Position numbers and translations under genes: made by a program. The notes under the pieces were generated by a model that worked only from the letters and a program-made list of their open reading frames with translations, was not told the origin of the DNA and made no database searches. From Rhizobacter sp. (GTDB lineage: Bacteria; Pseudomonadota; Gammaproteobacteria; Burkholderiales; Burkholderiaceae_C): a stretch of 50,202 nucleotides of DNA. Every line of letters begins with the position of its first letter. Position 1 is the stretch's first letter. Where the stretch lies: NCBI GenBank assembly GCA_025361845.1, contig JANYJL010000070.1, positions 1 to 50,202 on the forward strand, written 5' to 3'. Of the stretch, positions 6,343-24,843 are shown piece after piece.

Positions 6343-7329
6343 CTATCGGGTGGATGCGTGTGTAGCTTGAGGTGCAAGCGCCCCGACCACGACCGGCGGC
6401 ACGGCCGCTGCCGGTGGCTCGCCCGGTGCGGCTTCGGGCGGCTCCTCGGGCACAGGGGCGGTGCGGAAGAAGCGGTCCTCGGCCTCGCGGTTCATCACGA
6501 TGATGCTGATGCGGCGGTTCGCCGGGCTGTCGGGTTGGTCCTTCTCGAACAGGCTGCTCGATGCGAGGCCTTGCACGCGAAGGGTGCGGTTCTCGGGCAA
6601 GCCGCCACTGATCAATTCGCGGCGCGAAGCATTGGCGCGGTCGCTCGACAACTCCCAATTGCTGTAGCCGCGGTCGCCGCCCGGGAACGGCACGGCATCG
6701 GTGTGGCCTTCGAGCGTGAGCCGGTTCGGCACCTCTGCAAGCACCGAGCCGATCTCGCGCAAGAGATCGCGCATGTTCGGTCGCACGACGGCACTGCCGC
6801 TGTCGAACATCGGCCGGTTCTGTTCATCGACGATCTGGATGCGCAGGCCGTCGCGGGTCATGTCGAGGCGAATCTGCGAGCGCATCGCGGCGAGTTTCGG
6901 GTTGGAGGCGAGCACGTCCTCGACCTTGTCGCGCAACTCTTCCAGGCGCGCGGCTTCGGCCTTGCGCTGTTCGGCCTTGAACGCCTGCAGGTTGATGGTG
7001 CGGCGTTTGGCTTCGACGTCGCCCTGCTTGACCTGGCCGCCACTGCGCGAGAGGTCTTGCCCGCCGCCCTTGACGACATGCGACGAATCACCCGACCCGC
7101 TGCCACCGTTGAGCAAGGCCACCTTGAGCGGCGAGGCGAAGAAATCGGCAATGCCCTTCTTGTCGCCCTCGGTCGTGGAGCCGAGCAGCCACATCAGCAG
7201 GAAGAAGGCCATCATGGCCGTCACGAAGTCGGCGTAGGCGATCTTCCACGCACCGCCGTGAACGGCATGGCCGCCCTTCTTGACGCGCTTGATGATGATC
7301 GGTTGCAGCTTCTTGGCATCACCAGCCAT
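6343..7329 (-). CDS. motB: Flagellar motor stator protein MotB
   Basis: This 328-residue protein has a short cytoplasmic N-terminus, a single membrane helix with the proton-carrying Asp at about residue 34 (IAYADFVTAMMAFFLLMWLL), a plug/linker, and a C-terminal OmpA-like peptidoglycan-binding domain (LEGHTDAVPF, SNWELSSDRANASRRELI). The Tyr-Ala-Asp-Phe context fits proton-driven MotB. A Pro/Glu/Ala-rich tail of about 40 residues follows the OmpA domain. It forms the stator with MotA, whose gene lies 108 bp upstream across a repeat element. Confidence 0.97.
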   Translation of the reverse strand: MAGDAKKLQPIIIKRVKKGGHAVHGGAWKIAYADFVTAMMAFFLLMWLLGSTTEGDKKGIADFFASPLKVALLNGGSGSGDSSHVVKGGGQDLSRSGGQVKQGDVEAKRRTINLQAFKAEQRKAEAARLEELRDKVEDVLASNPKLAAMRSQIRLDMTRDGLRIQIVDEQNRPMFDSGSAVVRPNMRDLLREIGSVLAEVPNRLTLEGHTDAVPFPGGDRGYSNWELSSDRANASRRELISGGLPENRTLRVQGLASSSLFEKDQPDSPANRRISIIVMNREAEDRFFRTAPVPEEPPEAAPGEPPAAAVPPVVVGALAPQATHASTR

Positions 7330-17488: not shown

Positions 17489-18559
17489 TCAGGCGGTGGC
17501 GGGCGCTCGAACTGGGCGCGCGTGCCGCAACACCCGCTCCCGTTCACGCCAGCTCAGTGCCTGCGCCTCGTGCCCCAGGCTCGCGTGCAGCACGGCGAGG
17601 TTGTGGGCGGCGAGGTAGCTGCCGCGGCCGCGCACGGTGTCGTTCAAGGCCGCGCTTTCGCCGATGGCCAGTGCCTGCAGCCAGCTTGATTCGATCATCG
17701 GCAACAGCGCTGCGCCGCGCGCCGGTTCGCTGGCCGCCCAGTCGAGCAGCAGGTCGCCGAGGGTGAAGAAAAAGTCGGGTGAATGCGGCCAGTGCGGCAA
17801 CTCGCGCTCGACCAGCAGCATTGCCTGCGCATGACGCCCGAGCTTCTTCAGGCTGAAGATCAAGCGCAGCACCAGGTCGTGGCGCCAGGCCGCATGAAGC
17901 TCCACGTGAACATGAGCTTGTTCATACAGAGGCACCGCCGCATCGAAGCGGCCGCGCAGTTCCAGGTCCTTGCCGAGTTGATAACGCACATACGGGTCTT
18001 GCGGGTTCTCCACCAACTCGCGCCGCAACAGGCGTTCGTTGCGGCCGGCCTTGGCGTGCAGGTGTTCGTCGAGGTAGCCGTCGTGGCCGACGACCAGCGC
18101 GAGGCGTCGGCGCGGCACCGAGGCATCGGGTTGTTCGTGGATGCGCCCGCTGTAGCGCACGCCGCGCGGCAGCACACGTGGCAACCAACTGGGTGATTCG
18201 TCACCGCCCCGGCCGAACTGGCTGCTCACGCAGACCTGACCGATGAAGTCGGCTGCCATGCTGCGCAAACCCCCCAGGCACTCGACTCCGCTGTCGATCC
18301 ACTCATCGGCGTCGAGCACGAGGCGCCAGTCGGCATCGCAGAGATCGAGTGCGGCATTGCGCGCCGCGGCGAAGTCGTCGATCCAACCGAAGTGATGCAC
18401 CTGCGCGCCGGCGCGCTGTGCGCGGGCCACCGTGTCGTCGCGCGAGCCGGTGTCGAGCACGAGCATCGTGTCGACCCAGGGCCGTGCACTCGCCAGGCAG
18501 CGCTCGATGCAGCGCGCTTCGTCGCGAACGATCATCACCAGGGCCAGTCGATTGGACAT
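17489..18559 (-). CDS. GT2 glycosyltransferase with C-terminal TPR-like repeats
   Basis: Starting at the ATG at 18559 gives 356 residues beginning MSNRLALVMIVRDEARCIER. The N-terminal ~230 residues are a GT-A domain (TMLVLDTGSRDDTVARAQ, WIDDFAAARNAALDLCDADW, and the DXD-like VLDADEWID metal site). The rest is helical TPR-like (QDPYVRYQLGKDLELRGRFD). The SPBc2-type GT2-TPR arrangement is common in protein or surface glycosylation loci. It is the first gene of the leftward island operon, back to back with fliC, from which it is separated by about 400 bp. Confidence 0.85.
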   Translation of the reverse strand: MSNRLALVMIVRDEARCIERCLASARPWVDTMLVLDTGSRDDTVARAQRAGAQVHHFGWIDDFAAARNAALDLCDADWRLVLDADEWIDSGVECLGGLRSMAADFIGQVCVSSQFGRGGDESPSWLPRVLPRGVRYSGRIHEQPDASVPRRRLALVVGHDGYLDEHLHAKAGRNERLLRRELVENPQDPYVRYQLGKDLELRGRFDAAVPLYEQAHVHVELHAAWRHDLVLRLIFSLKKLGRHAQAMLLVERELPHWPHSPDFFFTLGDLLLDWAASEPARGAALLPMIESSWLQALAIGESAALNDTVRGRGSYLAAHNLAVLHASLGHEAQALSWRERERVLRHARPVRAPATA

Positions 18560-18696
18560 GGTCGGAATTGTGGGCCGGCCGCTGCGGTGCTGCGCCCTGC
18601 CCATCGTCGGAACAAGCGAGGGTTTGCGGTGCTGTTCCTTCGATCGAGCGGCACGTGGTGTGGCACCGGCCGTTCAACGTGCCCAAAAAAACTTTC

Positions 18697-18724
18697 TCAA
18701 GTTCGGCGTGGCGCTCTCCGATAA
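18697..18724 (+). promoter_or_regulatory. Sigma-28 promoter of the first flagellin
   Basis: TCAA (18697-18700), a 16 bp spacer and TCCGATAA (18717-18724) form a near-consensus FliA promoter. Its spacer is one base longer than at the other four sites in this window. It predicts a start near 18731 and an untranslated leader of about 230 nt. Confidence 0.75.
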
Positions 18725-18959: not shown

Positions 18960-19760
18960 ATGTCGATGATGATCAACACCAACGTCGTTTCGATGAATGC
19001 CCAGCGCAATCTGACGACTTCGCAAAGCTCGCTGGCCACGTCCATGCAGCGTCTTTCTTCCGGCCTTCGCGTCAACTCCGCCAAGGACGACGCTGCCGGC
19101 CTCGCGATTGCCGACCGCATGAACGCCCAGGTCAAGGGCATGAACGTCGCGATCCGCAATGCCAACGACGGCATCTCGCTGGCGCAAACCGCTGAAGGCG
19201 CGCTGGCCACGGTGACCGATGCGCTGCAACGCATGCGTGAACTGGCTGTGCAATCACAGAACGGTACCAACAGCACCGGCGACCGGACCAACCTGGACAC
19301 GGAATACCAAGCGCTGTCGGCTGAAATCACCCGCATTGCGCAACAAACCAAATTCAACGGCGTCGCTATGGTGAGCAGCCAGACCGTCACGCAGTTCCAG
19401 GTCGGTGCCAACAACGGCGACACGCTGACGGTCACCACCGCTGCGGTGACCACCGTGGGTGGCAACGTCAGCACCGCCGCCGGCGCTTCGACGGCCGTCT
19501 CCGCACTGGACACCGCGCTGGACACGATCAGCACGAACCGCGCGACCTACGGTGCCACGATCAGCCGCTTCCAGTTCGCGATCTCGAACCTGTCGATCAC
19601 GGAAGAAAACCAGTCGGCCGCCCGCGGCCGGATCATGGACGCCGACTTCGCGACGGAAACCTCCAACCTGTCGCGCTCGCAGATCCTGCAACAGGCTGGC
19701 ACGGCGATGGTGGCGCAGGCCAACCAGCTCAGCAACAACGTCATGTCGCTGCTGCGCTGA
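18960..19760 (+). CDS. fliC: Flagellin (first copy)
   Basis: This 266-residue flagellin has conserved ends that form the D0/D1 helices ([31 protein letters not shown]-like [19 protein letters not shown]-terminal [20 protein letters not shown] ending VMSLLR). The middle (~residues 145-200) is short and rich in Ser/Thr/Val, which makes it the likely glycan-bearing surface and leaves almost no D2/D3 domain. It starts with ATG after AAGGAG. A terminator at 19788 follows. It is exported with FliS as chaperone and polymerised under FliD, both encoded downstream. Confidence 0.97.
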
Positions 19761-19968: not shown

Positions 19969-20775
19969 ATGCCATCAACCATCAACACCAACGTCGTTTC
20001 GCTGAACGCGCAACGCAACCTCGACACCTCGCACAGCTCGCTGGCAACGTCGATGCAGCGCCTGTCCTCGGGCCTGCGGGTCAATTCCGCCAAGGACGAC
20101 GCCGCCGGCCTCGCCATCGCCGACCGCATGAACACCCAGGTGCGAGGCATCGCCGTCGCGATCCGCAACGCGAACGACGGCATCTCGCTGGCGCAGACCG
20201 CTGAAGGCGCGCTGGCCACGATGACCGACGCCTTGCAACGCATGCGTGAACTGGCTGTGCAGGCGCAGAACGGCACCAACGGCACGGGCGACCGCGGCAA
20301 CCTCGACACCGAGTTCCAGCAGTTGTCGGCTGAAATCGCGCGCATCGCCTCGCAGACGAAATTCAACGGCGTGGCCATCGTCGGCGCCGGCGCGGGCGCG
20401 CAGGTGTTCCAGATCGGGCCGAACAACGGCGACACGCTGACCGTCACCACCGCGACGGTGACCACGGTGGTCGGCTCGGTCAGCACCGCGGCATTGGCCT
20501 CGACGGCGCTGTCGGCGATCGACACCGCGCTCGACTCGATCAGCACCAACCGAGCCACCTACGGCGCGGCGATGAGCCGCTTCGGCTTCGCCATTTCCAA
20601 TCTGCAGATCACCGGCGAGAACCAGAGCGCCGCACGGGGCCGCATCATGGATGCCGATTTCGCGATGGAAACTTCGAACCTCTCGCGTGCGCAGATCCTG
20701 CAACAGGCGGGCAACGCAATGGTGGCGCAAGCCAACCAGTTGCCCCAGCAGGTGATGGCGCTGCTGCGCAACTGA
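19969..20775 (+). CDS. Flagellin (second copy)
   Basis: This 268-residue flagellin is closely similar to the copy at 18960 along its whole length (INTNVVSLNAQRNLDTSHSS; shared [21 protein letters not shown]-terminal SNLSRAQILQQAGNAMVAQA, ending ALLRN). Differences concentrate in the central ~60 residues (IVGAGAGAQVFQIGPNNGD against [18 protein letters not shown]). It has its own leader after the first copy's terminator, but I find no good sigma-28 site there: TCAAG at 19869 is followed by CCGTT at the wrong distance. It may be a minor filament subunit or be expressed differently. Confidence 0.96.
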   Translation: MPSTINTNVVSLNAQRNLDTSHSSLATSMQRLSSGLRVNSAKDDAAGLAIADRMNTQVRGIAVAIRNANDGISLAQTAEGALATMTDALQRMRELAVQAQNGTNGTGDRGNLDTEFQQLSAEIARIASQTKFNGVAIVGAGAGAQVFQIGPNNGDTLTVTTATVTTVVGSVSTAALASTALSAIDTALDSISTNRATYGAAMSRFGFAISNLQITGENQSAARGRIMDADFAMETSNLSRAQILQQAGNAMVAQANQLPQQVMALLRN

Positions 20776-20811: not shown

Positions 20812-20838
20812 TCAAGTTCGCGCCACGGGAGCCGATAT
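20812..20838 (+). promoter_or_regulatory. Sigma-28 promoter of fliD
   Basis: TCAA, exactly 15 bp, then GCCGATAT: one mismatch from consensus. It lies about 93 bp upstream of the fliD ATG and just after the second flagellin stop. Confidence 0.9.
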
Positions 20839-23260: not shown

Positions 23261-24019
23261 ATGGAAACACTGCCGATGCCGCTGGACACGCTGGCGGCCC
23301 AGCCCGGCGGGCTGGACGACTTTCGCATCACCTCGCCGCGCGAGATTGCCGCGGTGCTCAGGCAGCTCTGCGACGGCAACGTGCGCCTGAACCTCAACAC
23401 GCCCGATGGCACCGTGCTCGGCGCGCTGCTGTGGACGGTGGACAGCCTGCGCGACCGCCTCTCCTTCAGCGCGGACGAAAACGACCCGATGCTTCCGGCC
23501 CTGCTGGAATGCGATGAGGCCGTCGTCGTGGGCTACCTCGACAGCGTGAAATTGCAGTTCGACGTGAGCCAGCTCGTGCTGGTGCGCGGCGGCCGCGACA
23601 GCGTGCTCTCGGCCGCCTTGCCGCGCCAGATGTTCCGCTTCCAGCGCCGCAGCGGCTACCGCGTGCGGCCGCTGCTCAACAACGCACCGCTGGCGCGCCT
23701 GCGTCACAGCGAGATCGGCGAGATGCAGTTGGCACTGCGTGTACTCGACCTGAGCATCGGCGGTTGCGCGCTGTTCCTGCCCAACGACGTCCCGGCCATG
23801 CAACCCGGCGTGCAGATCAACCAGGTGCGCATCGAGCTGGATGCGGACACGCAGTTGCTCGTGAACCTGAAGCTACAACACGTGACGTCGATCAACCCCG
23901 ATTCGCGCGGTGTGCGCCTGGGTTGCGAGTTCGTGAACGCCAGCGGCGACGCGCTGCGCACCTTGCAGCGCTTCATCGACCAGACGCAGAAGCGCAGAAA
24001 ACTGATGGCCTTGCCCTGA
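23261..24019 (+). CDS. ycgR: YcgR-type c-di-GMP flagellar brake
   Basis: This 252-residue protein has an N-terminal YcgR domain (ITSPREIAAVLRQLCDGNVR, LLWTVDSLRDRLSFSADEND) and a C-terminal PilZ domain. The c-di-GMP-binding RxxxR element is in FRFQRRSGYRVRPL near residue 128 and the DxSxxG element in DLSIGGCALFLP near residue 165. It should slow or bias the motor at high c-di-GMP through contacts with FliG/FliM or MotA. It overlaps functionally with the fliST unit and probably shares its sigma-28 promoter. No GGDEF or EAL gene is visible here. Confidence 0.92.
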   Translation: METLPMPLDTLAAQPGGLDDFRITSPREIAAVLRQLCDGNVRLNLNTPDGTVLGALLWTVDSLRDRLSFSADENDPMLPALLECDEAVVVGYLDSVKLQFDVSQLVLVRGGRDSVLSAALPRQMFRFQRRSGYRVRPLLNNAPLARLRHSEIGEMQLALRVLDLSIGGCALFLPNDVPAMQPGVQINQVRIELDADTQLLVNLKLQHVTSINPDSRGVRLGCEFVNASGDALRTLQRFIDQTQKRRKLMALP

Positions 24020-24099
24020 GCGGGCTGGGTCTCGGGTGGTGACAACCACCGTGCGTGAAAAACGCACACAACTCATTACAAGACGCCGCCCACCCGGCC

Positions 24100-24126
24100 T
24101 CAAGTCCGGCGGCGGATTGCCGTTAT
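24100..24126 (+). promoter_or_regulatory. Sigma-28 promoter of the unnamed 84-residue gene
   Basis: TCAA, exactly 15 bp, then GCCGTTAT, a close match to the FliA consensus. It lies 38 bp upstream of the ATG at 24165, which is preceded by AAGGAG. Confidence 0.85.
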
Positions 24127-24164
24127 CACTGACATCAACCCCTGCCCCACCTAAGGAGAGCAGC

Positions 24165-24419
24165 ATGAATGTCAATGGTATTTCTTCAGGAGCCGTACGC
24201 AGCGCACAGCCTGTCGCGCCGACCCAGCCGGTTCAGGCCGAGACGCGTGATCCGCGCTCGAGCCCGCTGATCGAGATCGACAAGAAGACGAACGCGCCGG
24301 TGCCGCTGAAGTTTCCGTGGCTGAGCCGTTTGTCGCGCGAACTGGAGCAGGCCTCAGGCCAGCCCGCACCGTTCAGCGCCGGCCCCGAACTGGGCGACCA
24401 GCTCGACACCAAGGCTTGA
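24165..24419 (+). CDS. Small unnamed protein of the late flagellar class
   Basis: It has 84 residues starting MNVNGISSGAVRSAQPVAPT. I do not recognise a family. It has no signal peptide, membrane helix or Cys. The N-terminal half is disordered (Pro/Ala/Gln/Val-rich). A more structured stretch follows (SPLIEIDKKTNAPVPLKFPW, then LSRLSRELEQASGQP), and the end is acidic. It has a strong AAGGAG ribosome site and its own near-consensus sigma-28 promoter, and lies between ycgR and fliE. It may be a secreted or chaperone-like late flagellar factor. It is not FlgM by sequence as far as I can tell, although the size and the short amphipathic helix would suit an export-coupled regulator. Confidence 0.75.
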   Translation: MNVNGISSGAVRSAQPVAPTQPVQAETRDPRSSPLIEIDKKTNAPVPLKFPWLSRLSRELEQASGQPAPFSAGPELGDQLDTKA

Positions 24420-24444
24420 ACGGGCCATGCCAGGCCGGCGCTCA

Positions 24445-24519
24445 GGCCAGCGCCGGGCCGCCCCGAGCGGCCTGAGATCCCCTCGGGGGGCGACGCCGCA
24501 GGTGTCTTGGGGTCGTCAT
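24445..24519 (-). repeat. GC-rich intergenic repeat, copy 2 (after fliE)
   Basis: This second copy of the element at 7361 again begins directly after the stop of a minus-strand gene (fliE). The outer 26 bp and the TCCCCTCGGGGGGC block are identical and the middle differs. CCCCGAG and CTCGGGG can form a stem. It separates the rightward 84-residue gene from leftward fliE, so it may serve as a terminator for both. Confidence 0.75.
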
Positions 24520-24843
24520 TCAAACTTGCATGTTCATGATGTCGGAGTAGGCCTGTACGAGGCGGTTGCGCACCGCGAGCGTGGCCTGGAACCCGACTTG
24601 CGCCTTCTGCATCGCGACCATCGTCTGCTCGATGCTGACGCTCGGGTTGTCTATCTGCACCTCGCGCTGCAAACGCACCGATTCATTCTGCGTCTGGCTC
24701 ACCGAGCCGAGCGCCTGCGTCAGCGCCTGCTGAAACCCCGCCCCCTGCACCGCGTTGTTGCGCGCCAGCGGCTGGCCGTTCGTGGCCAGGCCCGCACGGG
24801 CCACGGCCTGGGCGAAATCGAAAGGTTTGAGGGTGACGTTCAT
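24520..24843 (-). CDS. fliE: Flagellar hook-basal body protein FliE
   Basis: Starting at the ATG at 24843 gives 107 residues. The C-terminal two-thirds match FliE: GFQQALTQALGSVSQTQNES, REVQIDNPSVSIEQTMVAMQ, KAQVGFQATLAVRNRLVQAY ending DIMNMQV. FliE links the MS ring to the proximal rod and is the first rod protein exported. It is divergent from fliF across about 180 bp, the usual betaproteobacterial arrangement. A much longer upstream frame (to 25140) runs into fliF and is not real. Confidence 0.95.
   Translation of the reverse strand: MNVTLKPFDFAQAVARAGLATNGQPLARNNAVQGAGFQQALTQALGSVSQTQNESVRLQREVQIDNPSVSIEQTMVAMQKAQVGFQATLAVRNRLVQAYSDIMNMQV

Follow-up and report, generated by a model that had tools for sequence, protein, structure and literature searches.

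The window, that is, the whole 50,202-nucleotide stretch of Rhizobacter sp. DNA analysed here, contains a flagellar locus with the gene order fliC, a second fliC, fliD, fliS, fliT, ycgR and ORF84 (plus strand), followed on the opposite strand by fliE, fliF, fliG and onward. These gene names (ycgR, fliE, fliS, fliT and the others) were assigned by eye from the translations. ORF84 is an intact gene for an 84-residue protein, comprising 84 codons on the plus strand at 24165-24419, from an ATG at 24165 to a stop codon that ends at 24419. It is placed between ycgR, which ends at 24019, and fliE, which lies on the minus strand at 24520-24843, and ORF84 and fliE are thus convergent. A sequence-only reading of this DNA had described an intact small gene with a strong ribosome site between ycgR and fliE, and both the 84 codons and the AAGGAG sequence confirm this description. 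The features of the gene and its upstream region are as follows:

24073-24081, strand not given: TCATTACAA, a TTGTNACAA-like element (two mismatches) that precedes the -35
24100-24126, plus strand: sigma-28 (FliA)-type promoter site, consisting of TCAA, a 15-base spacer and GCCGTTAT (from sequence, a pattern scan and conservation in relatives)
24153-24158, plus strand: ribosome-binding site AAGGAG, 6 bases 5' of the ATG, read directly from the sequence
24165-24419, plus strand: ORF84, an 84-residue protein of a new family (from homologues, dN/dS and alignment)
24165-24185, plus strand: conserved N-terminal segment, residues 1-7 (family M[SN][VI][NS]xV), mean 2.9 bits per column
24309-24362, plus strand: conserved core, residues 49-66 (KFPWLSRLSRELEQASGQ), with a predicted helix at residues 51-64, mean 3.3 bits per column
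24363-24416, plus strand: C-terminal tail, residues 67-84, with an LGxxLDxxA ending, 2.3 bits per column in residues 67-74 and 2.8 in residues 75-84

Several other features are visible nearby. The two flagellin genes are closely similar and arranged in tandem (18960-19760 and 19969-20775), and are preceded by a glycosyltransferase-like gene, named by eye, on the minus strand (17489-18604). The gap between ORF84 and fliE contains an 8-base perfect inverted repeat at 24435-24456, which lacks a T run. No terminator-like site was reported there, and the best fold of that stretch omits the inverted repeat.

ORF84 is a conserved protein-coding gene and represents a real, unnamed protein family. A search with a 12-row alignment recovered homologues at 25 named loci. 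The hosts are Piscinibacter, Rhizobacter, Roseateles saccharophilus, Pelomonas aquatica, a Rubrivivax MAG, a Rhodoferax MAG, and MAGs named only Burkholderiales, Proteobacteria or Pseudomonadota, with Rhizobacter, Piscinibacter and related MAGs making up most of them. Estimates of dN/dS were below 1 in all 15 chosen pairs (range 0.09-0.58), with values of 0.09-0.41 in 13 pairs of relatives, and of 0.40 and 0.58 for the window against loci L013 and L014. Owing to a frame shift in the assembly, locus L019 was excluded from the 25-row alignment (A2) and from the dN/dS estimates, and was kept in the promoter count. A degenerate copy in genome G139 (L012/L043) was included in alignment A1 and in the genome tallies, and left outside A2 and the promoter counts. 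This copy lacks the FPWLS core, has no sigma-28 site of at least 10/12 after ycgR, and is apparently decaying.

The family has a narrow range, within one group of bacteria from fresh water and soil. Single-protein searches detected ORF84 in 2 of 100 relatives and in 12 of 299 family genomes, the window's own genome counted. Alignment A2 matched 18 of 399 family genomes, which belong to 6 of the 141 genera sampled; this tally includes the own genome and one degenerate copy, and since 13 candidates were scored per genome, misses are possible. These genome sets overlap with the 25 named loci, and the counts are not independent. At the level of the order, 3 of 399 genomes matched: the window's own, one from the same family, and G385. 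The last was the sole match outside the family (E 9e-4) and was judged spurious on inspection of its frame. To judge from the 6 of 141 genera sampled in the window's family, ORF84 is not a general Burkholderiales flagellar gene. A plasmid search for ORF84 gave no match, and when the open frames of the window were searched with a profile, ORF84 alone was recovered (next best E 0.33).

Searches of family libraries did not place the protein. The window protein had no match in Pfam or NCBIfam up to E 10, and its matches in the PDB were at chance level (macrophage migration inhibitory factor, E 0.75 and above). Searched against structures, the family gave cecropin and macrophage migration inhibitory factor, again at chance level (E 1.3-1.8). 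Among the 25 members, no Pfam match was significant (six families, each in 1 of 25, best E 0.036), no NCBIfam match was found, and no PHROG match was significant (seven PHROGs in one or two of the 25, best E 0.11). The sequence-only reading had recognised no family and had asked for a profile search. Its caution was right. None of the matches in Pfam, NCBIfam, PHROG or the PDB reached significance, and the profile search, once run, matched no named family and uncovered the 25 named flagellar-locus relatives. A literature search, with most subscription journals outside its scope, found no report on the gene among the matches listed. Nor does any chaperone family of the FliT, FliS or FlgN kind appear among the ORF84 matches, and fliS and fliT are present as separate genes just upstream.

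The promoter site of ORF84 consists of TCAA at 24100-24103 and GCCGTTAT at 24119-24126. It had been called perfect, which was overstated, since it scores 10/12 against TCAA-N15-GCCGATAA. Taken alone, the site is marginal within the 150-base upstream stretch (shuffled p = 0.045). The pattern TCAA-N13..16-GCCGWTAW occurs exactly three times in the 50-kb window, at 20812 (fliD), 22406 (fliS) and 24100, and was absent from each of 100 shuffles. Relaxing the criteria to at least 10/12 with a spacer of 14-16 gave 17 sites in the window. These include sites at motA (8371, minus strand), at 18697 (plus strand), 235 bases 5' of fliC, and at fliD and fliS, which bears out the four other sigma-28 sites reported earlier. 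Absent from that earlier list is a 10/12 site at 6343-6370 on the minus strand, 33 bases 5' of a CheY-like gene. Many other sites of at least 10/12 show no evident flagellar gene behind them, and a lone 10/12 match is therefore weak evidence. The sigma-28 case for ORF84 is made by conservation across relatives, and not by the single site.

This conservation is extensive. The best site lies 32-44 bases 5' of the ATG in all 26 rows (the window and the 25 named loci). It scores at least 10/12 in 24 rows, and the same 24 have a shuffled p below 0.05; the exceptions, L018 and L020, have sites of 9/12 that were reached by shuffles (p 0.11 and 0.07). A fixed-zone promoter pattern, composed (as was the TTGTNACAA motif) after the rows had been seen, occurs in 23 of the 26 (shuffled mean 0.03, maximum 1). 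The 26 rows are related and do not represent independent events, although some pairs have dS above 1. The gene thus has its own sigma-28-type site, as had been proposed, and the site is conserved together with the gene. A conserved site at promoter distance upstream is expected of sigma-28 (FliA)-dependent late genes, and ORF84 has one; it is very probable that FliA transcribes ORF84. The 17 window sites, many without an evident flagellar gene, could also be read as a sign that both the ORF84 frame and its promoter match arose by chance. This reading is refuted by the homologues, the dN/dS values below 1 and the conserved promoter position, and its probability is close to nil; that ORF84 is a genuine gene can be held with near certainty.

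A second element may accompany the promoter. A TTGTNACAA-like sequence (at most two mismatches) is found within 50 bases 5' of the -35 in 20 of the 26 rows (shuffled mean 2.5, maximum 6), and it starts 26-28 bases before the -35 in 19 of these 20 rows, and 18 bases before it in L032. When no more than one mismatch is allowed, the window has a single copy of the motif (24037-24045), fewer than expected by chance, and at this stringency none was found before the window's fliC, fliD or fliS. An activator could sit at the TTGTNACAA-like element upstream of the ORF84 -35.

The genomic context of ORF84 is consistently flagellar. All 25 named relatives sit in flagellar loci, in line with the earlier placement of the gene in a flagellar class, and YcgR is encoded near ORF84 in 25 of these loci, FliT in 24 and FliE in 23. 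The order fliT, ycgR, ORF84 is kept in 22 loci. In Roseateles and Pelomonas (L026 and L032), the order is fliT, ORF84, ycgR, and ycgR and ORF84 of the Rhodoferax MAG (L023) lie about 4 kb apart, with other DNA in between. FliT is 62-80% identical to that of the window in the 24 loci where it was seen. YcgR of L026 and L032 is 38% identical to that of the window, on a branch of 2.0 changes per column, and the ORF84 core and promoter are kept there.

The reverse association is much looser. YcgR was detected in 53 of 140 family genomes (one per genus), and ORF84 follows ycgR in 5 of the best 30 ycgR loci, namely the window, three intact relatives and the degenerate G139 copy. A weak frame of 7.7 bits at the expected place after ycgR in L055 was counted as absent. 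Since 25 of the best 30 ycgR loci lack ORF84 after ycgR, ORF84 cannot be a core component of the export apparatus. Elsewhere among these 30 loci, fliE abuts ycgR directly in some, and another gene follows in others. In L065, a 12/12 sigma-28 site (2275-2301) stands directly after ycgR and ahead of a motA-like gene, which shows that the gene behind ycgR varies between genera. Type IV prepilin-like genes lie just after ycgR in L026 (6106-6594), L056 (2277-2786), L063 (2259-2660) and L069 (2319-2765); these were called by eye from FTLLE/FTLVE-like starts, and the gene in L069 is listed from a later start. When mapped on a YcgR tree (55 rows, 53 of them different), ORF84 presence requires 4 changes (bootstrap 4-5), against 18.3 with shuffled labels, and at least two of the changes are forced by well supported branches. 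On this tree, the presence of ORF84 is clustered, partly via near-copies, and is not the outcome of a single gain without losses.

Conservation within the protein is concentrated at its two ends, around a hypervariable linker, with a C-terminus of the form RFPWLSRLxxeLExAs...LGexLDkqA. Linker residues 15-40 carry about 1.3 bits per column. Residues M1, F50, P51, W52, L53, S54, L60, E61 and G77 are invariant in the 25 rows of A2. An AlphaFold2 model built with the family alignment shows disorder and one helix (residues 51-64) at low confidence (mean pLDDT 58.6), with pLDDT values of 73 in residues 51-60 and 66 in residues 61-70. This agrees, within that low confidence, with the disordered N-terminus and short helical segment noted earlier. 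Amphipathicity of the helix is significant in only 12 of 25 members, and is weak in a WLSWETRQLE subgroup. The N-terminus has one charged residue in positions 2-21. In charge and in S/T/N/Q content it is nearer to the exported FliC and FliD than to FliT, YcgR, FliG and FliJ, within a hand-picked set that left out FlgM and FliK. The same comparison fails to separate the classes, as FliS and FliF also have few charges and the exported FliE has three, and this likeness is therefore only consistent with export.

The conserved sigma-28-type site and the residence in flagellar loci together point to a probable late flagellar accessory. ORF84 is most likely a lineage-restricted late (class 3) flagellar accessory of the Rhizobacter/Piscinibacter/Roseateles group. 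The preferred explanation of its role is that it is an export-coupled late flagellar protein, putatively an exported substrate, to which we assign a probability of roughly 0.4. Transcription by FliA would mean that ORF84 is made on hook completion, together with flagellin and FliD. The protein would be a largely unfolded peptide with two functional ends and a free linker between them. A conserved N-terminus in a disordered chain, combined with a conserved C-terminal helix, suggests an export signal and a docking peptide: the nearly uncharged N-terminus would act as a putative flagellar type III export signal, and the C-terminal helix (FPWLSRLxxELExA) with its LGexLD tail may dock on a folded partner. 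Among partners, the export gate or one of the late export chaperones FliT and FliS would be most plausible, and the position of ORF84 directly after fliT in Roseateles and Pelomonas was counted in favour of this reading. With the onset of late export, ORF84 would either exit the cell or compete with other late cargo. A more elaborate version, which is quite unlikely, makes ORF84 an exported checkpoint peptide that is produced after FliA release, and docks its FPWLSRL helix on the export gate or a late chaperone before being secreted, which would give this lineage a second, FlgM-like feedback that counts filament export.

Other functions would also be compatible with parts of this evidence. Ranking next after the export-coupled reading, as a tentative possibility, is a cytosolic co-regulator whose C-terminal helix occupies FliT (or FliS), and which tunes export of the filament cap or FliT-based regulation. 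Chaperone-binding peptides usually take the form of a short conserved helix in a disordered chain, as in the FliS-flagellin and FliT-FliD pairs, and the ORF84 helix would suit this form. ORF84 also adjoins fliT in L026 and L032 and is one gene away from it in 22 other named loci, and FliT itself is well conserved (24 loci); such a role, however, leaves the conserved N-terminus without explanation. A FliA-driven secreted factor that is unrelated to motility, and that acts on surfaces or other organisms, is fairly unlikely. The patchy, lineage-restricted range, the sigma-28-type site and the hypervariable linker would fit such a factor, and the Feds and FspA of Campylobacter offer precedents (PMC5223770), but the C-terminal core is strongly conserved, unlike what would be expected of a fast-evolving surface factor. 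It is likewise doubtful, and slightly less probable, that ORF84 adjusts the motor brake as a partner of the c-di-GMP effector YcgR. ORF84 adjoins ycgR in 24 of the 25 named loci, and is downstream of it in 22. Nevertheless, most of the best ycgR loci do without ORF84, ORF84 has a promoter site of its own, and the very divergent YcgR beside an intact ORF84 core and promoter in Roseateles and Pelomonas speaks against a dedicated partnership.

A relationship to FlaG was examined because the window's bacterial family mostly lacks FlaG: no PF03646 match was detected in 35 of the 36 family genomes sampled (own included), whereas 15 of 24 genomes from other families of the order had one, in a sample that kept genomes without flagella. 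ORF84 could then be a highly shrunken FlaG descendant that replaces FlaG in this family. Both proteins are small and have a disordered-looking N-terminus (by eye), and the N-terminal 34 columns score above shuffled controls (2/60 and 0/60 shuffles as high). Set against this, profile-profile comparison gives a probability below 1%, and the C-terminal part, where FlaG is conserved, does no better than column-shuffled controls. ORF84 has neither a PF03646 match nor a profile likeness to Burkholderiales FlaG, and descent from FlaG is very improbable.

ORF84 adds an uncharacterised family to the likely late flagellar regulon. The protein is small and its two conserved ends are short, which makes it an accessible subject for experiments. 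Some genera have ORF84 and related genera that carry ycgR lack it, a natural comparison for what lineage-specific flagellar add-ons do. More generally, when family libraries give no match, joint conservation of a gene and its sigma-28 site can point to an orphan flagellar gene.

On this reading, ORF84 is a new family within a known kind, the lineage-restricted late flagellar accessories. FlgM, the exported anti-sigma-28 factor, is small and largely disordered, with an N-terminal export signal and functional C-terminal helices. ORF84 resembles this general picture of FlgM in its small size, disorder and late flagellar regulon; it differs in lacking PF04316, which was found neither in the window protein (Pfam E up to 10) nor in the 25 members (E up to 1). 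A separate FlgM match above the family cut-off is present elsewhere in the window's own genome (L039). FlxA is a small sigma-28-controlled protein of unknown role. FlxA of E. coli and ORF84 are both small and share an MSV... start, and the FlxA family (PF14282) was rejected as a match, with one weak hit among the 25 members (L026, E 0.036, 14.6 bits against a cut-off of 26.3) and an hhalign probability of 0.6%. For the fliS, fliTX and flgZ (PilZ) operon of Xanthomonas oryzae, the published abstract mentions no ORF84-like gene. A parallel in mode of action may be found in Campylobacter jejuni, where, according to the same source (PMC5223770), the Feds depend on sigma-28, and FspA needs a minimum flagellar structure for its secretion. 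Like ORF84, these proteins are lineage-specific and tied to the flagellum.
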